From Desulforapulum autotrophicum (GTDB lineage: Bacteria > Desulfobacterota > Desulfobacteria > Desulfobacterales > Desulfolunaceae), in contig DYJE01000035.1 of NCBI GenBank assembly GCA_020723285.1, positions 1 to 47,602 of the forward strand: a stretch of 47,602 bases of DNA, given 5' to 3'. Below the pieces are notes generated by a model. The model was not told the origin of the DNA, searched no databases, and was given only the letters and a program-made list of their open reading frames with translations. This document shows, in pieces, positions 3,001-32,940 of the stretch; within the stretch, counting starts at the first letter, position 1, and every line of letters begins with the position of its first letter. The translations under genes and the position numbers were made by a program.

Positions 3001-5117
3001 ATTCAGGCGGGACGCCCTCCCGGATGGATATCGCCAAAGACGCTTTAAAAGCGATGTTTGACAGCTTTGACAATCTCGGAAACGTGAACATCCAGTTCGT
3101 TCCCTTTTCATCCACCGCCGTCAAATCCCAGTGGTATGTGGATGACAAAAGCGGTGCCAGCGCCTACCTGGACGCCATCACACCCAGCGGGAGCACATAC
3201 TATGACACGGCTCTGTCAACGACCCAGAACAGCTTCACCACTCCCACAGCTGATAAAACCCTGGTCTATTTCATTTCAGACGGCGAGCCCAACGCAGGCC
3301 ATGAGGCGAACCAGGCCACATGGGAAGCCTTCGTGTCAAGCCATGACATCGATATTTCCTTTGGCATCGGAATCACCAGCAACGTCAACCTGAGCTCGCT
3401 TCAGCCCGTGGCGTACCCCAACACCAACGCCGATGGCGACACTGACCCTTACGCCATCCAGGTATTGAACGCCTTTGACCTGAAAAAAACCCTGCTCGAC
3501 ACGGTTTCCGAAGGAATCGTTCAGGGGGATGCGGCCATTCTCACTGCGGAAGGTGATGGCGGGATCATCCTTGGAGCCGATGGAGGACATATCCAGTCCA
3601 TCCTGGTGGATGGTCATCTGTACGAATATTCAGCGACCCAGACCACGGCCAGCATCACCACGGTCCGGGGAGGAACCTTTGAAATCGATTACGAAACAGG
3701 AGAATATTTCTACACCATCAACCCCAAGGATACGGTTACAGGGGAACAGGAAACATTCACCATCACGGCAGTTGACAACGACGGGGACACCAAAACCGTG
3801 GACCTGGTCATCAATCTCGATTATGTGGCGAATCTTGACGCGAACTATGACCGGATCATCACGAACGCCGGAACAGGCGACAGCCTTGACATCGATTTTT
3901 CAGCCCTTCTTGCCAACGACGCCGGAGGCTCCCATGTATCGGTCACCGGCGTGACCGCTACGGCGGGAACAGATCTCACAAGCACATCGGACAAAGTCAC
4001 CCTGACCAGCGTCGCCAACGGAGAATCATTTACCTACACCATTTCAGCCGACGGGGCCACGGACTCCGCCAAAGCGGATGTGGTTCGAACCGATTCCGCA
4101 ATCCTCAACGGAACGTCCGGAGATGACATCCTGATCAACACCCTGCCGGACCCGAGGGATTTTACCATCGATGCGGTGGTTCGCTCAGGCAGCACATACA
4201 ACCAGCCGAACCAGATTGGCATCGTCTTTGACGGGTCAGCGGATCTTTACATCACGGATATTTCCATCAACCTCCGGGCCGGAACCGATCCCAACGCCAT
4301 ATTCAACACAGCCGGAACTGGCTCATCAGGGCCCACCATCGGATCAGACACAACCGGCATCAGTTCAAGCTCCGTTCATTTCACGGTGTCGGACAACAGC
4401 CCCACGCTGAATGTTCATTTTGACAACGACGCATTCAGGGCAAACGACGAATTCTGGTTCGGCGTGGACACCAACAGCCTGGGCAGCAATACGGGCGCAT
4501 CGTTTGGTGACGCTGGCGTCAGCGTCACAGTCACCCTGAGCGACGGGTCTCAGTTTAGTGGAACCTATGTCACCCAGTCGGACGGGTCCTCGCGGGTCGT
4601 CATGACGGAAAACACCCCAGCTCTCTATGGCCATGAAGGAAATGACTATCTGGTGGGTCACGACGCCAGCGAAATATTCGATGGCGGTGCAGGTGTGGAC
4701 AGCATACACGCCGGAGGAGGAGACGACACCATCGTCTTCGATGCCAGCGACAGCCATACCGATGGCGGCAGTGGAAACGATACACTCATGCTGTCTTACG
4801 ACGCCCTGGATTTCAGTGCCTTGTCCGACAACAGCATCCACAATATCGAAACATTGAATATGAATTCAAGCACAGCCCAAACCGTTTCATTAACCCTGAA
4901 CGATGTCCTTGACATGACCGATTCCAATCATGTGCTCCATATCACCGGAGGCGATGGGGACCAGGTCACCCTGGATGTGACCGGATCCACGGGAAGCTGG
5001 ACTTACGAAGGCGGAGGCGTTTTCTCAAACGGTGTGGACCAGGTTCAGATTGTCGCTGTAGATGATGTCAACAACAAGGTCAAGATCTTTACCGATGACG
5101 GCACAGCCATCAATTAA
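1..5117 (+). CDS. Large type I-secreted RTX/LapA-like adhesin, 5' partial
   Basis: The frame is open from the first bases, so the start lies outside the window; about 1,700 C-terminal residues are present. Visible in order: Ig-like repeats of 102-104 residues, each ending in a V-D-T-T motif (period marks at nt 69, 381 and 687); cadherin/VCBS-like stretches starting E-D-T-A; a LamG/concanavalin-like domain (about nt 1085-1770, G-H-W-I-F to D-D-I-R-V-Y); more VCBS-like repeats; a von Willebrand A domain (about nt 2935-3520) with an intact MIDAS D-R-S-G-S; and a C-terminal RTX-like calcium-binding segment (about nt 4620-4790, G-N-D and G-G-D-D-T turns) followed by a type I secretion target region. 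Composition is rich in T, D, S, G and poor in Cys, as expected for a giant surface adhesin. The convergent operon encodes a complete Lap exporter and protease set, so this is very probably its substrate. The LapG cleavage site and retention module would be N-terminal and are not in view. Confidence 0.9.
69..686 (+). repeat. Two tandem Ig-like repeat units within the adhesin gene
   Basis: Two successive coding repeats (69-380, 312 nt; 381-686, 306 nt) each begin with a V-D-T-T motif and contain T-A-D-D-(I/V)-I-N, V-N-G-or-I-N-G, F-S-I-D-V-A-G and D-A-A-G-N. A third partial unit precedes nt 69, so the array extends beyond the window. Such arrays make up the extender region of BapA/LapA-type adhesins and commonly vary in copy number. 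Confidence 0.85.
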
Positions 5118-5742: not shown

Positions 5743-7124
5743 TATTTCTCCCTCAAGGCATTTTCTTTTGCACGCAGAATCGGTTTCATCAGATAGTGCA
5801 TGATGGATTTCTTGCCTGTGATGATATCCACCTGGGCTGTCATTCCCACCATGATTTCCTTTTTGTTGTCCTCGGTCCCCAGAAAATCCTTGTTCGTTTC
5901 AACACGGACAAGATAGTACTCTTCCTGCCTTTCATCGGTGATGGTGTCTGCGCTGATATGCCTGACCACACCATCCAGACCGCCATAAATGGCGAAATCA
6001 TAGGCCGTCAGCTTGACCACGGCCTTAAGTCCGGGATGAAGAAAGGCGATGTCTGCGGGCCTGATCTTGGCCTCAACCAGAATTTTTTCTTCATCGGGAA
6101 CAATTTCAACGATATCCATTCCGGGTTTGACAACCCCTCCAATGGTGTTGATCAGCATCCGTTTAACGGTTCCGTCCACCGGTGACCGGACCTGAGTCCG
6201 GTCCACCCTGTCCTGAATGGCCACATGGGTCTTGTCAAGACGTTCAATTTCAGCCATGACTTTGTTGTACTCCTCTTGGGCCTCTGACCGGTATCGGGCA
6301 TCGAACTCCTGGATCTGATTTTTCGCCTCGATAATTTTCGAACTCAGGTTTTCCGCCTTTTTTTGCGCGCTTTCGTACTGATATTTCTTATCCAGTTCCT
6401 TCTGCTTCAGTTGAATGTATTCCAGTTCGGAAACGAGACCTTTGACAACCAGGGGATGGGTCAGCTCCACCTCCCGTGCAATCATTTTCAATGCTTTTTT
6501 CAGGGTCTCGATATCAAGCCTGGCCTCGGACTGTTCGATCTCTCTTTGTTTCAGCCGTTGCTCAAGAACCATCTTCTCGTTCATCTTCCGTAAAACATTG
6601 GTGTCATAAAGCTGTCTTTCCTTTTTGACGGCATCGGCCATAACACCCGAATAATTTGTATCAGTTTCAAAGGGCCTGTTTCCGGCTTCCGCTTTCAGTC
6701 GTACAGCCCTGGCCTTCAGTTCGTTGATCACCGTGGTGCTTTCGGCAAACGAACTTCCCGCTCCGGTATCATCGATGACCACAAGAACCTGGTCCTTTTT
6801 TACCGCATCCCCTTCTGCGACAAGAATCTGGCCCACAATCCCGCCTTCCAGATTCTGGACAACCTGTATCTGCCTGGAAGGGATCACCCGTCCGATCCCC
6901 CGTGTCCGTTCATCCAGTTTGGCAATGTTCGCCCACAGGATCAGGATAAAGACGATCAGGGTGATACTCCCTAGAAGCAGGTTGGATTTGGCCGGAGTTC
7001 CGGCAAGAACAGCCGCGCTCAGACTGTTCATGAACTCGATATCCTCCGGGCTGAATCGTTCCCGTGAACCGGGCTTCCGTCGTCTCACGATGTCTTTCCC
7101 TTCTGTGCTCTTATCAATCGTCAT
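5742..7124 (-). CDS. lapC: Type I secretion membrane fusion protein, HlyD/LapC-like
   Basis: This 460-residue periplasmic adaptor links the inner-membrane ABC exporter to the TolC-type channel. A short cytoplasmic N terminus precedes one membrane segment (about residues 48-66, I-T-L-I-V-F-I-L-I-L-W). Next come a lipoyl/barrel-sandwich half (I-P-S-R-Q-I-Q-V-V-Q-N-L-E-G-G-I-V), long coiled coils (about 130-300) and the second lipoyl half (R-S-P-V-D-G-T-V). The end is the conserved HlyD-family beta-barrel (M-V-G-M-T-A-Q-V-D-I-I-T-G). Length is typical of the family. It overlaps the ABC gene by 4 nt (ATGA). The assignment to LapC rather than generic HlyD rests on the flanking LapB-, LapD- and LapG-like genes. 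Confidence 0.92.
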   Translation of the reverse strand: MTIDKSTEGKDIVRRRKPGSRERFSPEDIEFMNSLSAAVLAGTPAKSNLLLGSITLIVFILILWANIAKLDERTRGIGRVIPSRQIQVVQNLEGGIVGQILVAEGDAVKKDQVLVVIDDTGAGSSFAESTTVINELKARAVRLKAEAGNRPFETDTNYSGVMADAVKKERQLYDTNVLRKMNEKMVLEQRLKQREIEQSEARLDIETLKKALKMIAREVELTHPLVVKGLVSELEYIQLKQKELDKKYQYESAQKKAENLSSKIIEAKNQIQEFDARYRSEAQEEYNKVMAEIERLDKTHVAIQDRVDRTQVRSPVDGTVKRMLINTIGGVVKPGMDIVEIVPDEEKILVEAKIRPADIAFLHPGLKAVVKLTAYDFAIYGGLDGVVRHISADTITDERQEEYYLVRVETNKDFLGTEDNKKEIMVGMTAQVDIITGKKSIMHYLMKPILRAKENALREK

Positions 7125-9268
7125 CTTCCGGTCCCTCCAAGCTTCGCGAGAATTTCATGCTTGGGACCGTCCATGGCCACATTCCCGTTATCCATGACAA
7201 TGATCCTGTCTACGATGTCAAGAATCGCGGGTTTGTGGGTGATGATCACCGCCGTTCTGTCCTGGATCATGGATTTCAGATTGGCGATCACCTGAATTTC
7301 CGTGTTGAAATCCATGGCGTTGGTGGGTTCATCCAGAAGGACCACGGGACTTTTTTCAACAAAGCATCGAGCAATGGCCACGGCCTGTCGCTGTCCGCCC
7401 GACAGGTTGAATCCCCTTTCGCCCACCTGCATGTCCATGCCCAGAGGATGACGGTCTGTAAAGGCATTGACCCGTCCCACACCGGCGGCGTCCACAATCT
7501 CCTGGTCCCGGACATGGGGAGATTTGAGGGTGATGTTCTCCCTGACCGTTCCTGAAAAAAGAACCACATCCTGGGGCACATACCCGATATTGTGGCGAAG
7601 ATCCACAGGATCGATCTGCTTGATGTCAAGACCATCGATAAACACCGAGCCTTCATTCACATCATAAAAACCCATGATGATTTTACTCAAGGTGGACTTT
7701 CCTGAACCCACCGGACCGATGACCGCCACTTTTTCTCCGGCTTTTATTTGGAAATTCACTTTTGACAATGCAGGTTTCTGCTCATCGGGATACGCGAAGA
7801 CAACATCCTTGAATTCAATGTCTCCATGGAATTTCGGCCTCCGGATGAATTGTTTTTTCTCGGGGCGCTCCACCTCTTTTCTCATCAGTTCATTCAAGGA
7901 CTGCAACCCGCTTTTCATCTGCTCGAAACTGGACAGCAGGGAAACCACCTGGCTCATGGGGGCGATGGCCCGTGAAGCGAGAAGGTTGATGGCAATCAAC
8001 CCGCCCATGGACAGCTCGCCGGCTTTGATCAGATACACGCCCAGAACGATGATGACCACAGAACAGAACTGGGTTAAGAACACAGCCATGGTGGACAGCG
8101 CGTTGGACAGTATGCGGGATGTCAGGCTTTTTGACGCGATGTCACCGGTGCTTTCCTCCCATCTCCACTGCATGGCACTGCTTGCGTTGAACGCTTTGAT
8201 GGTTTCCAGATTGGCCAGGGCTTCGACGAGGATACCGTTCCGGTGACCCGCCGCTTCATGGGTGCTTTCAATGATCCTGTAAATGGGTTTTCTCATGATA
8301 AGGCTGATCAGAAGGATCATACCGATAATGGCCAGGGGAACACAAACCATGGTCCCGTTGATGGAATAGATCACCAGGAGAAATATCACGGCAAACGGCA
8401 CTTCGATAAAAGCCGTGACCGCACTTGAAGAAAAAAATGATCTTATACTGTCAAAATCCCTGATATTGCTCGTAAACGCGCCCACAGAACGAGGTTTATC
8501 CTTGAGTTTGAGATTCATGGCCTGTTCGAAAAGAAGAGATGACAGAATGATATCCGTCTTTTTCGCGGCATTCTCAAGAAACGTGGTGCGAATGAATTTC
8601 ATGACCAGGTCGAACAGGTAAATGATGAGGATGCCGATGGAAAGCGCCCAGAGCGTGTCCACCGCGTTATGGGGAATGATCCGGTCATACACGTTCATGG
8701 TGAACAATGGACCTGCCACCACAAACAGATTCACCAGGAACGTGGCCAGAAGAACCCGTGCATACATCCCTTTGAAATTCATCATCGTGCCGAAAAACCA
8801 GTTTTCCCGGTCCGATTCAGCGCCCACTCGCTTGCTCTCGCTGGCCCCTTCGTAGATCCTCTTAAGGAAGAACACGTAACCCAGGTATTGTTCTTCCAGT
8901 TTTTCAAGATCGATCTCGATGGGATCGTCATCCACTGAAGGAACGATGATTTCCGCCACATGGTCCTTGTAAGAAATATCCTTGAGCACACAGGCGCTGT
9001 CGTCTTTCAACACAAGGATCACCGGCAGCACCACCGGCGGAATATCCCGAAGTTTTCGTTCCCTCAGACTCGAAATAAATCCCGCCTTGGCCGCGGCGCG
9101 GGAAAAGTTGGACTTGGGTTTGTCCAGACTGAACAGCCTCTGCTTTTCATCTTTCGGATCAAAAGGAAGGCCATGGGCCAGGGACTCGGCAGAAGCCGGT
9201 TTGTTGTTCAGCCGGGTCAGGCTTACCAGGCATTGCATCAAGGGGTCTGTGGAAATATTATAATTCAT
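7121..9268 (-). CDS. lapB: Type I secretion ABC exporter with C39-like domain, LapB-like
   Basis: This 715-residue protein is an ATP-driven inner-membrane exporter for RTX/LapA-type adhesins. Residues 1-140 form a C39 peptidase-like domain beginning D-P-L-M-Q-C-L as in LapB proteins, without a recognisable Cys-His catalytic pair, so it should bind rather than cleave substrate. The transmembrane domain covers about 165-440. The nucleotide-binding domain has Walker A G-P-V-G-S-G-K-S-T, signature L-S-G-G-Q-R-Q, Walker B V-V-L-L-D-E-P-T and H-loop I-T-H-K. Its start overlaps the end of lapD by 11 nt and its stop overlaps lapC by 4 nt, indicating translational coupling. Confidence 0.94.
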   Translation of the reverse strand: MNYNISTDPLMQCLVSLTRLNNKPASAESLAHGLPFDPKDEKQRLFSLDKPKSNFSRAAAKAGFISSLRERKLRDIPPVVLPVILVLKDDSACVLKDISYKDHVAEIIVPSVDDDPIEIDLEKLEEQYLGYVFFLKRIYEGASESKRVGAESDRENWFFGTMMNFKGMYARVLLATFLVNLFVVAGPLFTMNVYDRIIPHNAVDTLWALSIGILIIYLFDLVMKFIRTTFLENAAKKTDIILSSLLFEQAMNLKLKDKPRSVGAFTSNIRDFDSIRSFFSSSAVTAFIEVPFAVIFLLVIYSINGTMVCVPLAIIGMILLISLIMRKPIYRIIESTHEAAGHRNGILVEALANLETIKAFNASSAMQWRWEESTGDIASKSLTSRILSNALSTMAVFLTQFCSVVIIVLGVYLIKAGELSMGGLIAINLLASRAIAPMSQVVSLLSSFEQMKSGLQSLNELMRKEVERPEKKQFIRRPKFHGDIEFKDVVFAYPDEQKPALSKVNFQIKAGEKVAVIGPVGSGKSTLSKIIMGFYDVNEGSVFIDGLDIKQIDPVDLRHNIGYVPQDVVLFSGTVRENITLKSPHVRDQEIVDAAGVGRVNAFTDRHPLGMDMQVGERGFNLSGGQRQAVAIARCFVEKSPVVLLDEPTNAMDFNTEIQVIANLKSMIQDRTAVIITHKPAILDIVDRIIVMDNGNVAMDGPKHEILAKLGGTGR

Positions 9269-26181: not shown

Positions 26182-27099
26182 TCAGAGGGTCTCGGGCACA
26201 AAGGCCACAACATCGTCGATGGACCGTGTATCACAGAACAGCATGATCATGCGGTCGAGACCAGCGGCAATACCGGCACAGGGCGGCATATCCGGAAGGG
26301 ATGCAAGAAAGGTTTCAGGCATGGGATAGTTCTTTTTTCCAAGTCTCTCACGGACCGTGTGCTCGTCTCTGAAACGGCGGGCCTGCTCTTCGGCGTCGGT
26401 GAGTTCGGTGAATCCGTTGGCCAGTTCAACCCCAGCGATGTAAAGTTCGACCCGTTCGGCCACTTCGGGTTCTCCAGGTTTCAGGCGCGCCAGGGAAGCC
26501 TTGGACGCGGGATAGTCGTAGAGGAAAACGGGTTTGTCGAAACCCAGCTTCGGCTCGATTTCAAGGCCCATCACCTCATCGTAGGAATCGTCGTCAAGGG
26601 CCTGGCCAAGGCTTTTTTCAGCATAAAGCTCAAAGGCTTTTGCCACGGTCAGCGCGTTCCACGGAGGCTTCAGACTGATGGTGTGTCCCTGGTAATGAAG
26701 GGTCTGGCTTAAGGCAAGATCCGCGGATATTTCAAGAAAAAGGACTTCCATCTGGGCCATGAGGTCCATATAGGTGGCATCTTTGGTGTACCATTCAAGA
26801 AGACTGAATTCGGGAAGGTGCCGGAAACCCCGCTCATCTTTCCTGAACACCCGGGCAATCTGGAAAATCCGTTCAAACCCTCTTGAAAGAAGCTGCTTCA
26901 TGCAGGCTTCCGGCGAGGCCTGAAGACTCCATCCTTCGGAATCGAAGGGGTCGATGTGTGTTTCGGGAATGGGCCGGGGAATGCGAACCGGCGTTTCCAC
27001 CTCAAGATAATCCCTGTCGTGAAAATAACGGCGGACCGATCGAATGATTTTTGACCGGATTTTGAGACAATGGCCGTTTGCGGGATACGTAGGTTCCAT
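26182..27099 (-). CDS. epmA: Elongation factor P--(R)-beta-lysine ligase
   Basis: This 305-residue protein is a truncated class II lysyl-tRNA synthetase paralogue (GenX/PoxA/YjeA). It attaches (R)-beta-lysine to a lysine of EF-P and so helps ribosomes pass polyproline. It has only the catalytic domain, without the anticodon-binding domain. Class II motif 1 is around Y-L-E-V-E-T-P, motif 2 is R-V-F-R-K-D-E-R-G with H-L-P-E-F-S-L-L-E-W, and motif 3 is G-I-A-A-G-L-D-R. E-L-A-N-G-F-x-E-L-T-D-A is nearly identical to E. coli EpmA. Its ATG shares one base with the upstream HDAC-family stop (TGATG), so the two are translated together. Neither efp nor epmB is in the window. Confidence 0.95.
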   Translation of the reverse strand: MEPTYPANGHCLKIRSKIIRSVRRYFHDRDYLEVETPVRIPRPIPETHIDPFDSEGWSLQASPEACMKQLLSRGFERIFQIARVFRKDERGFRHLPEFSLLEWYTKDATYMDLMAQMEVLFLEISADLALSQTLHYQGHTISLKPPWNALTVAKAFELYAEKSLGQALDDDSYDEVMGLEIEPKLGFDKPVFLYDYPASKASLARLKPGEPEVAERVELYIAGVELANGFTELTDAEEQARRFRDEHTVRERLGKKNYPMPETFLASLPDMPPCAGIAAGLDRMIMLFCDTRSIDDVVAFVPETL

Positions 27100-28424
27100 C
27101 AGCGCCGTTTCAGTATGTTTTCCTTGTATTCGTCGTTGGGTCTGTCCTGGAGAAACGCCCTGTCATAAGGCCCTTTCCCCGCCTGATCGTACCAGTCGAG
27201 AGCGGTCTGCCGACAGACACGGCAGGCCCCCGTGGGAATGGTCACGCCCAGAATATGCTGACCGGTGTCGGCGGAGCTGTCAATTTTAAGCGCCCCGGCG
27301 CACTCGTCGCAGATCCTGATTTCGTCTTTCTGCATTTCATAGATCATATCCGTGTCGTACATGATGGTCCGTCTGCGTTCGATAAAATCTCTGCCGCGGC
27401 GGATTTTTTCCTGCATGTCTTTCCTGGTTTTCCAGTGGGAGAGAACCGTTTCACCGATCCGCTTTATAGCCCTCGTCACTTCCCCGCTCTGGGATATCCG
27501 CGCCGCGTCAAACCCCGGTTCCACAATACCGCTGTAGTCCAGTCCGGCAAGGGCGAGGATCAGTCCGGTGTTCACGTATGGCAAGGCCCCTTCGATGGAA
27601 TAGCCCCCTTCGAGAACGGCGATGTCCGGTTTAAGCATGCGCGTGAGGTTGGCGTATCCCTGGGCGGAAAAGTTCATGTTGGTCAGGGGATCTGAAAAAT
27701 GGTTGTCCTGCCCCGCTGAATTGATGATGATTTCAGGTTTGAACTCGGAAAGAATGGGAAGCACCACATGCTCGATGGTGTACAGGTAGCCTTCGTCGGA
27801 CGTGGACGGCGGCAGGGGAATGTTCACTGTGGTGCCGAAGGCATTGGGCCCGCCCAGTTCTTCCATGAAACCCGAACCGGGATACAGCGTCCTTCCGTCC
27901 TGATGAATGGAAATGAACAGAGTGTCCGGATCGTGCCAGTAGATGTCCTGGGTTCCGTCTCCATGGTGGCAGTCCGTATCCACGATGGCCACACGTTTCA
28001 CACCGTAATGCCTGCGCAGATATTCCACAAGGATGGCTTCGTTGTTGATGTTGCAGAAGCCACGGTTGCCGTGGACCACCCGCATGGAATGGTGGCCGGG
28101 CGGCCTCACCAGGGCGAAGCCCCTCTCGATTTCCTTTTCCATAAGGGCACGGCCCATGGTGATGGCCCCACCCGCACTGATGAAGTGGGATTTGGTGGTC
28201 ACTGAAAACACATCGGGCACACAGAAATGGACCCGTTTGATGTCCATATCGCTCACCAGACTGGGCTTGTATTCCACAATACCCTCGATATCGAGGATGC
28301 CCTCTTCGAAAACCTGGTCCTGAGTGTAGAGAAGTCGTTCTTCGCGTTCTGGGTGGGTGGGATCGATGGCCCAGTCAAAAGCCGGAAAAAAAACGAGCCC
28401 AGTTTTATTGAGTGCTTTCAGCAT
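27099..28424 (-). CDS. Histone deacetylase family (acetoin-utilization-like) deacylase
   Basis: This 441-residue zinc amidohydrolase of the HDAC/AcuC superfamily removes acyl groups from lysines or small amines. The active site is intact: R-P-P-G-H-H-S, the zinc-binding D-C-H-H-G-D-G-T-Q, and a second zinc aspartate in S-A-G-Q-D-N-H-F-S-D-P. The C-terminal gate has L-E-G-G-Y-S. After the catalytic domain (about residues 1-330) comes an extension of about 100 residues. It carries two CxxC pairs (C-D-E-C and C-R-V-C), which resemble a zinc ribbon and are not part of the usual family core. A G-G-A-G...A-A-G-G region precedes the ATG. It overlaps epmA by one base. The substrate is unknown. Confidence 0.9.
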   Translation of the reverse strand: MLKALNKTGLVFFPAFDWAIDPTHPEREERLLYTQDQVFEEGILDIEGIVEYKPSLVSDMDIKRVHFCVPDVFSVTTKSHFISAGGAITMGRALMEKEIERGFALVRPPGHHSMRVVHGNRGFCNINNEAILVEYLRRHYGVKRVAIVDTDCHHGDGTQDIYWHDPDTLFISIHQDGRTLYPGSGFMEELGGPNAFGTTVNIPLPPSTSDEGYLYTIEHVVLPILSEFKPEIIINSAGQDNHFSDPLTNMNFSAQGYANLTRMLKPDIAVLEGGYSIEGALPYVNTGLILALAGLDYSGIVEPGFDAARISQSGEVTRAIKRIGETVLSHWKTRKDMQEKIRRGRDFIERRRTIMYDTDMIYEMQKDEIRICDECAGALKIDSSADTGQHILGVTIPTGACRVCRQTALDWYDQAGKGPYDRAFLQDRPNDEYKENILKRR

Positions 28425-28488
28425 ACCTTAACTCCGGTGACCTTATCGTTTCTTACGATCATTGTATTTTAAGCAACCGCAACGGTTT

Positions 28489-30153
28489 TCAATCCCGGTA
28501 TCCCTGAATCAGGCCGGGTTTCACCTGGGTTTTGATCCGGATATTCTTTCCGGTGGTCCTGAACCCCCTCACCATGTTGAAAGACAGGCTTTCGGTGATT
28601 TCCGTCTCAAGATTTTCAGCATCGGCACCGTATTTCACCGCCTTTTTCCTCAGAAGCTCAAGGGCGGTATCTTCGGCGTCGCTGAACGAATACATGGATC
28701 GGATGGTTTTGGAATAATTCTCTTCCGGAGCGAGAACAACGCCTTTTTCAGTGTCCACGAAAAGAGTAACCTCGCAGGTGGTCCGCGCAAGACCGGCTCC
28801 GATGGCGTTGGCCACGCCCCAGCGGGGAACCGCTTCCGCGTGATATCCTGAGATCTTCCTGAGGTGCTCGGTGAAATGCAGGGCGGGCCCCCCGAGAATG
28901 ACCAGCCGTGTCGGCCTCACCACGTACCCTTCAAGGAGTTCGTGAACTGTGTAAACCGGCTTGCTGTTGATGTCGTTCACCAGTTTTTCCGCAGCGGCAA
29001 GAATCAGACTGCACGTTTTTTCAAACACTTTTTCCGCCACTTCCCTGACGGAAATCCCCAAATTTGCTGCAAGGGATTCCATACCTTTGAACGCGGCCTG
29101 TGCATCCCCGTTATCGATCTTTTCAAGGACGAACAATGCATCGGTTGGTGTGGGCAGTCTTCCACCATAGGCCATGGCCGGGCCTTTGCGCATGGGTCCC
29201 ACAACAATCTCACCGTTCTCGACGCGCACATAACTGTCACCGCCCACCCCGATAGAAAAGGTTTTCAGAGAGCGTATCAGGGTCTTGTATTTCCCGAGAC
29301 TGATGCCCAGAGGTTCCAGTACAGGAGACTGGTTGATGAGCACGGCGATGTCCGTCGTGGTGCCGCCGATATCCAAAACGATGACATCCCCCTCTTTCGG
29401 CGCGGAATGAATAGCACCCATGACGCTGGCTGCCGGGCCTGAAAGAATGGTTTGGCCGGGAAAATCGATGGATGCGCTGAAATTCATCGTTCCACCGTCA
29501 GCCTTGAGGATGTGGATGGGAATGTTAAGCCCTTTTTCCATCAGCGATTTTTTTACTGCATTGTAAAAACGGCTGTGAACGGAAGACACAGAGGCATTGA
29601 GAAACGTTGTGGCTATACGCCGAGGGAAGTTCAGGTTTCCGGAAATCCTGTGACCGAGAAATATCTTTTCAAAAGCATAGTCCGTCAGTATTTTTTCCAC
29701 GCGAATTTCATGGGACGGATTCCGTGTTGAAAACTTTCCAACGACACCGACATTTTTAATCCCGGCCACTTTCATCAGGGCTGCGGCCTTGAGAACTTCG
29801 TCCTCCACCACGCCCTCGATTTCACGTCCTCTGTGATCGATGGAGCCTGAAACGCAGTAGTATTGATCGCAAGTCCTGAAGGCCATGGGATCGATTCCCG
29901 GACCGGCGAGAACAATCATGCCCACTTTTTCAACCTGATCCGTCACGATGGCGTTGGTGGTGAGGGTCGTGCTCAGTACCGCCCGTCTGATCAGTTGGGT
30001 GTCAATGCCTTCGGTGATTTTTTCAAGACCCGTCAAAACGGATTTGAAGAGTTCAGCGTTGTCTGTCAGGACTTTCACTTCCCGCATCGGGCCATCGGGT
30101 CCGATAAGAACGACATCGGTATGCGTTCCGCCCACGTCCAATCCAATAATCAT
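28489..30153 (-). CDS. Hydantoinase/oxoprolinase family protein (HyuA-like)
   Basis: This 554-residue member of the ASKHA-fold hydantoinase A/5-oxoprolinase family cleaves cyclic amides with ATP. The N-terminal phosphate-binding loop is I-I-G-L-D-V-G-G-T-H-T-D. The second phosphate motif is V-L-D-I-G-G-T-T-T-D near residue 270, and a third glycine-rich element is V-I-L-G-G-P-A. The B subunit (HyuB) usually encoded next door is absent, and the protein is shorter than the roughly 680 residues of typical HyuA because the C-terminal part is reduced. I chose the ATG at 30153, 6-9 nt after GGGGAA; the open frame extends to 30189. It is separated from the HDAC gene by 64 nt. The substrate cannot be named. 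Confidence 0.85.
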   Translation of the reverse strand: MIIGLDVGGTHTDVVLIGPDGPMREVKVLTDNAELFKSVLTGLEKITEGIDTQLIRRAVLSTTLTTNAIVTDQVEKVGMIVLAGPGIDPMAFRTCDQYYCVSGSIDHRGREIEGVVEDEVLKAAALMKVAGIKNVGVVGKFSTRNPSHEIRVEKILTDYAFEKIFLGHRISGNLNFPRRIATTFLNASVSSVHSRFYNAVKKSLMEKGLNIPIHILKADGGTMNFSASIDFPGQTILSGPAASVMGAIHSAPKEGDVIVLDIGGTTTDIAVLINQSPVLEPLGISLGKYKTLIRSLKTFSIGVGGDSYVRVENGEIVVGPMRKGPAMAYGGRLPTPTDALFVLEKIDNGDAQAAFKGMESLAANLGISVREVAEKVFEKTCSLILAAAEKLVNDINSKPVYTVHELLEGYVVRPTRLVILGGPALHFTEHLRKISGYHAEAVPRWGVANAIGAGLARTTCEVTLFVDTEKGVVLAPEENYSKTIRSMYSFSDAEDTALELLRKKAVKYGADAENLETEITESLSFNMVRGFRTTGKNIRIKTQVKPGLIQGYRD

Positions 30154-30516
30154 GGTATTCCCCATCAGGATCAGACCAATCCTGCCCATGAAATGAACAG
30201 CATCTCACGTGACAAGGATCAGCCTTCTGCATGTGATATAAAACGTATGTCTACTGCCGGTTCTCTTTCTAAGATTGTGAAGCTAACAAAGTATATAAAA
30301 TCAACTTCCTTGTCAATATGATCAATCCGTGACCCCTTATTATTTGCCATTCTTCCTCTCAGGGTGTTCGCTTTATACCCCATCAGACATTTCCACGGCG
30401 GATCACTTAAAAAATATCTTGTGGACACGAACCCGTTGGCTTATAAAACGGTGTATTTTGATGAATCTGAAGAAGAATATGATCCATATTATCATTATAT
30501 TTTTGAGGATACGAAC
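30154..30516. promoter_or_regulatory. Divergent promoter region; possible leftward promoter at 30290-30316
   Basis: This 363-nt region separates the leftward hydantoinase-type gene from the rightward isomerase-like gene. On the minus strand, TTGACA (30316-30311) and TATACT (30295-30290) form a sigma-70-like pair, but the 15-nt spacer is short. No clear rightward promoter is seen. GAGG at 30505-30508 is the ribosome site that fixes the isomerase start. I see no further gene here. Confidence 0.4.
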
Positions 30517-31239: not shown

Positions 31240-31547
31240 TGCAGCCTTGTCAGACACCGACCCGGATGATGATGCAACGCAACAATAGACGTTTGCTATC
31301 CTCCGGACAATTATTATTGACATTCTCTGAAAATAAAGAGTAGAAGGACTATTGTCCTGAAATGGATAAAGTGATAAACAGTTAAGTTCGGTAAAGTGAC
31401 GGGATGCTTACACGCATTCCGTCTGATTATGTTTATTTTCGTAAATGTGCTTGCTTCGTATAACGAATCTGCATGTTTTACATTGCCTTCTGTTACGGTC
31501 GCCCATTTTCCGTGACAGGAAAATTGATTAAGGAGGATTTTGTTAGT
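31240..31547 (+). promoter_or_regulatory. Promoter and operator-like region of the selenoprotein gene
   Basis: TTGACA at 31317-31322 and TAGAAG at 31341-31346 (18-nt spacer) form a sigma-70-like promoter. Dyads surround it: GGACAAT at 31305-31311 is inverted as ATTGTCC at 31351-31357, and AGGAC-TATT-GTCCT (31345-31358) is a local palindrome over the expected transcription start. This is an operator-like layout. The leader is then about 190 nt long, ending with AGGAGG at 31531-31536. No gene is seen in the leader. Confidence 0.5.
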
Positions 31548-32876
31548 ATGGCTGATGAAGCGATAAAAATCAGTGGAGATACGAAAAGTATCTTCAAAGA
31601 CAAGGTAATGGAGCTTCTGCCCGAAGGCGGAAACCTGAACGCCTGTCTTACGTGCGGCCTTTGCTCTTCCGGGTGTCCGGCGACAGGTATGGCCGACATG
31701 GACCCGAGGAAATTTCTCCGCATGGCGGCCCTCGGCATGGATGAAGAAATCAAGAATCATGACTGGGTCTGGATGTGCACCATGTGCACACGCTGCTCCA
31801 GAATCTGTCCCATGGCCATCAACATTCCCCAGCTGGTTTTCAACGCGCGCAGAATGAAACCCAGAGAAGAACGCCCCAAGGGAATCGTTGCGTCATGTGA
31901 CATGGCGCTTAAGATGGAAACTTGCAGTGCCATGGGTTGCGGCCAGGAAGATTTCGAATTCGTTGTGGGTGATGTTCTTGACGAAGTCAAGGCCTCTCAG
32001 CCAATCTGGGAAGAAAGAAATCTGGAAGCTCCCATCGATAAGGAAGGCGCAGAATTCTTCCTGAACCAGAACTCTCGCGAACCCATGACCGAACCCGAAG
32101 AAATGGTTCCCCTTTGGAAAATCCTGAATCTTGCCGGTGCAGATTGGACTTATGGAAGCACAGGCTGGGCCGGTGAAAACTACTGCCTATTCATGGCAGA
32201 TGATCCGGGCTGGGAACACATCACGAGGACAAGTGTCGGCAAAGCCGATGAATTGGGGTGCAAGACGTACCTCAACACCGAGTGAGGGCACATCACATTT
32301 GCAGTCCTGGTAGGACTGAAAAAATTCAACATCGAACACAAATGCAACGTGGAGCACATTTACAATATGTATGCGAAATGGATCCGCGAAGGCAAACTCA
32401 AACCCAATTCAGACTGGAACAAGGAACTTCAGATCAAATTCACGATCCAGGATCCTTGCCAGATCATCCGTAAGACCTTCGGCGATGAAACGGCTGAAAA
32501 CCTTCGTTACGTCGTGAAAGCTGCAGTAGGTGAAGAGAACGTCATCGACATGTATCCCAACCGCTCCAACAACTTCTGCTGTGGCGGGGGTGGCGGTTTC
32601 CTCCAGTCAGGATACAAGGAAGAACGTCTGGCCTACGGAAAGATCAAAGACACGCAGATCAAAAATACCGGTGCCACATACGTCATCGCAGGTTGCCACA
32701 ACTGCCACGCTCAGATCCATGAACTTTCCGAGCATTATGAAGGACACTACCACGTCGTTCATATCTGGACCATGCTGGCCCTTTCCCTGGGTATCCTGGC
32801 ACCCAACGAAAGGACATATCTCGGTGAAGAACTCCAGGATATCAATGTACCGGAATACATCGAACCGGAATATTAA
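31548..32876 (+). CDS. Selenocysteine-containing HdrC/HdrB-like (CCG domain) iron-sulfur oxidoreductase, UGA at 32283 read as Sec
   Basis: One reading frame runs from ATG 31548 (AGGAGG 11 nt upstream) to TAA 32874, interrupted only by TGA at 32283-32285. Reading it as selenocysteine gives 442 residues with Sec at 246. The N-terminal third is an HdrC-like ferredoxin domain with two CxxCxxCxxxCP clusters (C-L-T-C-G-L-C-S-S-G-C-P and C-T-M-C-T-R-C-S-R-I-C-P). The C-terminal half is HdrB/HdrD-like: Sec in T-E-U-G-H, then C-x39-CC and CxxC (D-P-C-Q, F-C-C-G-G-G, C-H-N-C), a CCG cluster motif. A SECIS-type hairpin lies 16 nt after the UGA. There is no signal peptide or membrane helix, so it is cytoplasmic. 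It probably carries electrons between acyl-CoA dehydrogenase/ETF or another donor and a disulfide, quinone or membrane complex; partners are inferred. A conventional annotation would wrongly split it into two genes. Confidence 0.88.
32302..32318 (+). promoter_or_regulatory. Bacterial SECIS element
   Basis: A perfect 6-bp stem CAGTCC (32302-32307)/GGACTG (32313-32318) closes a 5-nt loop TGGTA. Three more pairs (TTT with AAA) extend it across one bulged G. The apical loop contains the G-U step that SelB recognises, and starts 22 nt after the UGA, within the usual bacterial spacing. The hairpin is also coding (L-V-G-L-K region). Confidence 0.88.
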
Positions 32877-32907: not shown

Positions 32908-32940
32908 AAAAACCCCGATTCGAAAGAATCGGGGTTTTTT
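32908..32940. terminator. Strong bidirectional rho-independent terminator
   Basis: A 9-bp stem CCCCGATTC (32913-32921)/GAATCGGGG (32926-32934) with a GAAA tetraloop is flanked by an A-run on the left and six T on the right. It can therefore end both the rightward selenoprotein transcript and the leftward acyl-CoA dehydrogenase transcript. Confidence 0.93.

Follow-up and report, generated by a model that had tools for sequence, protein, structure and literature searches.

A GlpC-Like Selenoprotein Encoded by a Solitary Gene in Desulforapulum autotrophicum and Its Possible Role in HdrA-Linked Electron Transfer

The window analyzed here, a stretch of 47,602 nucleotides from Desulforapulum autotrophicum (contig DYJE01000035.1), carries a gene whose one in-frame TGA, codon 246, is almost certainly read as selenocysteine (Sec), a comparative reading that can be regarded as established short of protein data. 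The product very probably belongs to the Fe-S oxidoreductase (GlpC)-like, or soluble HdrD, selenoprotein group, an assignment that is based on motif, domains and lineage, set against published descriptions. A sequence-only reading of the same DNA had supposed that Sec at this site may be undescribed; in this it was mistaken, as the family is present in the literature (PMC1794560, PMC13188914, PMC2702500). What is added here is the order of the MetV and MetF genes around certain relatives, a clade that lacks such neighbors, and a putative position for the selenium next to a noncubane cluster. Taken as a whole, the proposal is a probable one: a GlpC-like selenoprotein would serve HdrA-MvhD electron transfer with its Sec beside the noncubane cluster, and the window's copy would be a solitary paralog. 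Features of the gene are collected in Table 1.

Table 1. Features of the selenoprotein gene and its surroundings (window coordinates)
Feature	Position	Strand	Remarks
Strong hairpin, 10 bp	31398..31423	+	Ends 124 bases before the start codon; z -5.58
Ribosome-binding site, AAGGAGGA	31530..31537	+	Read from the sequence
Selenoprotein gene	31548..32876	+	442 residues including selenocysteine 246; TAA stop; homologs align almost end to end
HdrC-like 4Fe-4S dicluster domain, residues 30-91	31635..31820	+	Pfam Fer4_8
TGA for selenocysteine 246, motif T-E-U-G-H	32283..32285	+	TGA in 76 and Cys in 12 of 88 distinct homologs
His248	32289..32291	+	Invariant in 40 of 40 rows; aligns with EtfD His583, a noncubane cluster ligand
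Bacterial SECIS hairpin, 7 bp, loop GGU	32302..32318	+	Arms 32302-32308 and 32312-32318; 16 nt after the TGA
Complete CCG domain, residues 299-390	32442..32717	+	Pfam CCG; predicted noncubane 4Fe-4S site
Terminator-like hairpin (intrinsic), 14 bp	32908..32939	+	Downstream of the gene; z -4.92

The Selenocysteine Codon and Its Hairpin

Positions 31548-32873, followed by TAA at 32874-32876, translate into a single 442-residue protein with just the one TGA in frame, in keeping with the earlier observation that the TGA at 32283 is the frame's sole break. Translation table 11 by itself divides the frame into two ORFs, 31473-32285 and 32349-32876. A match at E ≤ 1e-60 was obtained for 152 of 194 genomes of relatives (the window's own included). 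An in-frame TGA was present in every match listed from that search, down to 66% identity; a few of those listed carry a TAA or TAG as well. The site of the TGA was examined in the fetched loci, where 88 distinct homologous proteins displayed TGA (76) or Cys (12) at the E-(U/C)-(G/A)-H site, a ratio that is not a census because homologs were fetched best-first with two main queries. The 88 are distinct translated proteins from which identical copies in overlapping fetches were removed; L005 and L066 failed the length and score filter, and loci fetched later, including the Cys copies L154 and L157, lie outside the count. When the Cys paralog described below was used as the query against a sample of 395 genomes from the phylum, matches at E ≤ 1e-60 came from 108, and those listed were mostly TGA forms with some stop-free ones.

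A search of the whole window with Rfam at gathering scores gave no matches, and the SECIS hairpin was therefore examined by covariation. Its fold as a single sequence (z -1.29, with 21 of 200 shuffles folding equally well or better) is not beyond chance, so that the comparative test decides, and the single-sequence statistic was rejected as proof of a SECIS. In 73 TGA-type 60-mers, pairing holds in 509 of 511 stem cells, and 71 of the 60-mers have the full stem. Shifting the partner by 1 to 3 bases leaves 58-199 paired cells of 511, and 2000 redeals of the 3′ letters give 454 on average and at most 473 of 511. The pair next to the loop is U-A in 36 of the TGA-type stretches, G-C in 33 and A-U in four, and the full seven-pair stem survives random synonymous recoding in 1.7% of draws. 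By contrast, just 41 of 77 stem cells pair in 11 Cys-type 60-mers, none of which has the full stem. Both sets are composed of distinct DNA stretches, and exclude rows for which the C70 paralog (see below) was the best query, namely L003, L004 and one of two in L064. Judged by this comparison, compensatory changes preserve the SECIS stem among TGA forms, whereas it is broken in those with Cys, and the hairpin's loss among the latter is a natural control. The earlier claim of a SECIS hairpin at standard spacing holds.

Another means of accounting for the TGA is a sequencing error or a pseudogene, in which case it would be a true stop. The unremarkable single-sequence fold is what speaks for this explanation, but the TGA recurs in frame in every relative among the matches listed and at the same site in most of the distinct homologs, the hairpin covaries, and the frame is intact on both sides of the codon. 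For practical purposes this explanation is refuted, with scarcely any probability left to it, and selenocysteine is the reading followed from here on.

The window's genome (5.44 Mb, 97% complete) is equipped for such decoding: selA (610 bits), two selB genes above cut-off and two tRNA-Sec genes above the gathering score, both with the anticodon TCA, were found. These findings bear out the recoding proposed in the sequence-only reading, which had named the sel genes as a check and is further supported by the homologs and the covarying hairpin. SelB and tRNA-Sec would decode TGA 246 with the aid of the downstream hairpin, a step that is backed by comparison. The selB and tRNA-Sec genes are located on contigs C16, C79 and C37, and the two selB genes are just 30% identical to each other. 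On C16 (L068), selB occupies 5972-7906 of the minus strand with tRNA-Sec immediately upstream, and one selB and tRNA-Sec pair adjoins a gene for an 874-residue molybdopterin oxidoreductase. One suggestion is that the genome has two Sec systems, or that one was acquired.

Paralogs and Evolution

Two paralogs of the gene are instructive within the window's own genome: one on contig C22, which is 61% identical and has Cys in the motif T-E-C-G-H, and a second Sec paralog on C70, which is 36% identical and has P-E-U-G-H. The alignment of homologs at residue 246, which had been proposed as a check, has Cys or Sec at this position, and the Cys expected in relatives is seen as E-C-G-H in the genome's own paralogs on C22 and C68, among others. 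The Cys paralog of the same genome offers a natural control for the Sec protein. The C70 paralog (216397-217569; L003, L067) is distant and lies close to HdrA and MvhD genes, a locus reminiscent of the operons of Zhang 2006 as described there (PMC1794560). Further E-C-G-H copies close to the C22 paralog occur in L154 (genome G091) and L157 (G016), directly before HdrA and MvhD, and both of these genomes also carry a solitary Sec copy.

A maximum-likelihood tree of the 88 proteins calls for five switches between Sec and Cys, and well-supported branches force three or more of them. In the 85 rows that make up the family, Sec occupies the deepest branches; Cys rows fall at four points, of which three share a single unresolved fork. 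This pattern suggests, and does not prove, that an ancestral Sec may have been replaced by Cys several times; the outgroup is itself mixed. The window copy sits in a clade of 18 rows with support of 99/96, and its genome and G004 belong to the same family (f1). The copy of Desulfoluna limicola is 81% identical to the window's.

Domains and the Place of the Selenium

In an alignment of 40 hand-picked rows, the dicluster ligands Cys 33, 36, 39, 43, 77, 80, 83 and 87 are present in all 40, and E245, Cys/Sec246, H248 and the 13 cluster cysteines in total are likewise invariant. Two further cysteines, 213 (37 of 40 rows) and 238 (35 of 40 rows), are conserved, and as a matter of speculation they could be partners for an Se-S bond. 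An HdrC-HdrB fusion had been proposed for this protein, of which the HdrC-like part stands, with all eight Cys ligands for two cubane clusters, as does the CCG domain. The HdrB label is imprecise, for the protein is not a full HdrB: of the two CCG sites for clusters in HdrB it has just one in complete form, and the selenocysteine lies in the first site, which is degenerate. HdrB and HdrD proper have two complete CCG motifs, and a single one is found here. In agreement, the HdrB model gives 29.8 bits against a cut-off of 345.15. GlpC proper (TIGR03379) gives 26.4 against 279.9. The nearest NCBIfam models are DsrK (100.5 bits, cut-off 400), TmcB (158.4, cut-off 735) and HmcF (149.9, cut-off 750).

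The predicted model of the window protein has a mean pLDDT of 87.4, and its best structural match is Mycobacterium EtfD (Z 26.5, 367 residues, rmsd 2.6), followed by HdrB (Z 21-22 over 245-255 residues). In the sequence alignment, U246 pairs with EtfD Cys581 and H248 with His583, and Cys 304, 344, 345, 383 and 386 of the CCG domain align with EtfD Cys637, 672, 673, 709 and 712. According to the description of EtfD, Cys581 is an end ligand of a linear 3Fe-4S cluster (D1), and His583 completes the noncubane cluster (PMC13083937). Of the four EtfD D1 ligand positions, that of Cys581 is the only one with Cys or Sec in the family, those of Cys503, Cys538 and Cys584 not being Cys. This pairing of ligands implies one noncubane cluster, the second cluster of EtfD and HdrB being represented by Sec or Cys only. 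Thus, selenocysteine would occupy a D1 ligand position two residues from the predicted noncubane-ligating His, and both the EtfD alignment and the fold match of the model place the selenium, putatively, beside the noncubane cluster. The match with EtfD thereby offers a concrete and testable place for it.

Judging from the invariant ligands, the HdrC-like part would hold two cubane 4Fe-4S clusters and the CCG domain one noncubane 4Fe-4S cluster. Sec 246 would stand where the first CCG cluster in HdrB and EtfD has one of its ligands, the others being gone. The simplest reading is a free selenolate near the noncubane cluster, engaged in disulfide chemistry or in gating of the electron path, and Sec 246 would most likely be such a selenolate and carry out a disulfide or two-electron step. 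For a redox-active Sec at the cluster, the scales are evenly poised. The His-completed noncubane cluster of EtfD is considered non-catalytic by its authors (PMC13083937), and this would suit pure electron transfer with no disulfide step. Yet another conceivable scheme, albeit a rather unlikely one, is a hybrid disulfide reductase, in which the selenolate replaces one of HdrB's two catalytic noncubane clusters, a substrate disulfide (e.g., that of DsrC) is cleaved with Sec 246 on one side and the noncubane cluster that is left on the other, and the solitary subunit, encoded away from any HdrA-MvhD-MetVF operon, is common to several HdrA complexes.

Gene Neighborhoods and Electron Transfer Partners

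HdrA, MvhD, MetV and MetF were searched for by tblastn within 1.5 kb of each gene at E ≤ 1e-10. None of the 18 members of the window's clade has any of the four within this distance (16 of the 18 with full flanks on both sides), and none was present in the larger stretches covered for members of the clade. Among the 56 Sec rows outside the clade, 40 have at least one of the four nearby (20 with HdrA/MvhD only, 14 with these plus MetV/MetF, and 6 with MetV/MetF only), and 16 have none, so the solitary state is not confined to the window's clade. For the 11 Cys rows, HdrA or MvhD is nearby in seven and none of the four in the remaining four.

In one group of operonic relatives the genes occur in the order HdrA, MvhD, Sec protein, MetV, MetF, and in others the order varies. 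For one such operon (L055), Pfam confirmed FlpD/MvhD, a MetV domain (DUF5981) and MTHFR, as well as flavin and ferredoxin domains in a 946-residue protein, whose homologs in the window's genome and in G026 match HdrA models best, at scores below the cut-offs. The MvhD-like ORFs of this locus (204-683 and 3859-4203) begin part-way into the FlpD profile. Perhaps an in-frame TGA lies upstream, with Sec in MvhD and perhaps in HdrA, and perhaps several selenoproteins are encoded per operon. In Moorella, a complex of MetVF with HdrCBA and MvhD has been proposed, the type IV MTHFR (PMC8760232); together with the relatives' gene order, this makes it appear that the Sec protein replaces HdrB and HdrC, and suggests that the relatives are HdrBC-like subunits of electron-bifurcating complexes. 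Many relatives would encode the Sec protein together with MetV and MetF, that is, with a methylene-tetrahydrofolate reductase, and the order of HdrA, MvhD, Sec protein, MetV and MetF connects the family with electron bifurcation and with the sulfate reducers' one-carbon pathway.

From gene order, the protein would carry electrons to or from an HdrA-MvhD flavoprotein complex, with an acceptor or donor at the other end, taking the role of HdrBC as in other HdrA complexes, and the window copy, as a solitary paralog, would meet its partner in trans. On balance, the evidence leans toward HdrBC-like electron transfer with an HdrA complex. It must be weighed against the HdrB-like genes of the window's genome, one of which directly precedes an HdrA-MvhD-MetV-MetF cluster on C76, such that the partner's job may already be taken. 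MetVF was considered as a general partner of the solitary copy and rejected, as MetV was not found at E ≤ 1e-30 in five of the 20 genomes searched (G016, G026, G032, G091 and G127), all of which carry a copy of the window's clade.

Around the window gene itself, the flanking genes likeliest to be real lie on the minus strand, with a 306-residue ORF upstream and an acyl-CoA dehydrogenase gene downstream, and these, together with the terminator-like hairpin, make the gene look like a single-gene unit. A pattern scan for terminators did not list that hairpin. The strong hairpin that precedes the gene lies within a stretch of roughly 220 bp and has a weak T-rich tail. Farther upstream, the minus strand at 26182-30189 encodes an EpmA-like lysine ligase, a histone-deacetylase-like protein and a hydantoinase, and relatives belonging to the same family (L043-L049) have retained two or three of these genes upstream of their Sec gene. 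A convergent gene, taken from its sequence, with no family search, to code for threonyl-tRNA synthetase, lies downstream of copies of both types, solitary (L043, L050, L051, L052 and L140) and operonic (L054, L055 and L061). It was not found in the stretches around the window copy, around the Desulfoluna copies (L044, L046, L047 and L049) or around L135-L139. Where it occurs, it points to a single ancestral locus that either lost partner genes or gained them.

The neighboring acyl-CoA dehydrogenase gene, which is convergent, also bears on a different function, namely that of a soluble acceptor for electron transfer flavoprotein (ETF) akin to EtfD, FadF and DgcB, in which electrons would pass from FAD to the noncubane cluster and then to the two cubanes, with Sec serving only for protection or tuning. 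EtfD is the closest solved fold, and FadF and DgcB, according to the same account, also lack the Cys of the first cluster and presumably accept electrons from ETF at the second (PMC13083937). However, relatives of the gene adjoin HdrA and MvhD, and the Pfam matches of the window protein include no membrane domain, unlike EtfD, which is a membrane protein. An ETF acceptor is distinctly improbable on these grounds, and an HdrA complex is retained as the favored partner.

Which HdrA complex this might be leads to a more specific possibility, that the solitary protein reduces DsrC as the HdrBC equivalent of an HdrA-MvhD-FlxCBA-dsrC locus that lacks an hdrB of its own. HdrA, MvhD, three genes that we take to be Flx-like, and dsrC, with a presumed role for DsrC at this locus, occur together in the window's genome (C80, L151), in G004 (L155) and in G091 (L153), and the locus has neither an HdrB match nor a member of the family. 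Suggestive, too, is G026, which has one full-length HdrA of that kind and no MetV at E ≤ 1e-30, and whose Sec gene is the sole match at E ≤ 1e-60; its contig ends past the first Flx-like gene. But that first Flx-like gene is nearly order-wide, occurring in 105 of 126 genomes, and G029 (100% complete) has it with no family match at E ≤ 1e-60. The locus is therefore not tied to the Sec family, co-occurrence does not single it out, and a specific link between the solitary copy and the Flx-HdrA-dsrC locus is unsupported by it. A search of the literature on DsrK with a noncubane cluster and DsrC found none. Reduction of DsrC by the solitary protein is accordingly a doubtful proposition, and the general role with an HdrA complex remains the preferred one.

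Comparison with Known Systems

Fe-S oxidoreductase (GlpC) was listed as a bacterial selenoprotein family in 2006, and GlpC-like selenoproteins were described in Deltaproteobacteria in operons with hdrA, frhD, frhG and frhA (PMC1794560). Twenty years on, the functions of such selenoprotein families are still regarded as largely uncharacterized in a 2026 review, whose table prints the Sec motif of this one as UGH (PMC13188914). The window protein, a CCG-type Fe-S oxidoreductase, has this U-G-H motif. Among the titles and beginnings of abstracts searched, neither a solitary form of the selenoprotein nor its link to MetVF was found, and no absence is claimed. What the window protein shares with the GlpC-like selenoprotein as described in 2006 is Sec in the U-G-H of a deltaproteobacterial CCG-type Fe-S oxidoreductase, encoded in some genomes with HdrA and FrhD/MvhD. 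The reported operons contain frhA, frhG, frhD and hdrA (PMC1794560). Certain relatives of the window's gene are accompanied by MetV-MetF instead, and that gene itself stands alone.

A selenoprotein designated hdrD4 was included in 2009 among the soluble proteins of Desulfobacterium autotrophicum with HdrC and HdrB domains (PMC2702500). It is likewise soluble, with both domains, a selenocysteine and an origin in the same broad group of sulfate reducers; the two are likened by description and not by sequence, and orthology is unproven. DsrK, TmcB and HmcF share a superfamily with the window protein by their NCBIfam matches, but it scores far under all three cut-offs. The window genome's own paralogs of that superfamily, on C68, have E-C-G-H.

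EtfD of Mycobacterium smegmatis (PDB 9ojn) is the closest solved fold and shares by alignment the cubane and noncubane ligands, including the His two residues past the Sec site. It differs in its membrane helices, its heme and its linear 3Fe-4S cluster (PMC13083937); at the site of the last, the window's family keeps Sec or Cys alone. Finally, the operonic relatives have HdrA, MvhD, MetV and MetF in common with the type IV MTHFR of Moorella (MetVF-HdrCBA-MvhD). The latter has separate HdrC and HdrB subunits (PMC8760232), whereas the relatives have a single HdrC-HdrB-like chain with Sec in their place, and the window copy has none of hdrA, mvhD, metV and metF beside it.
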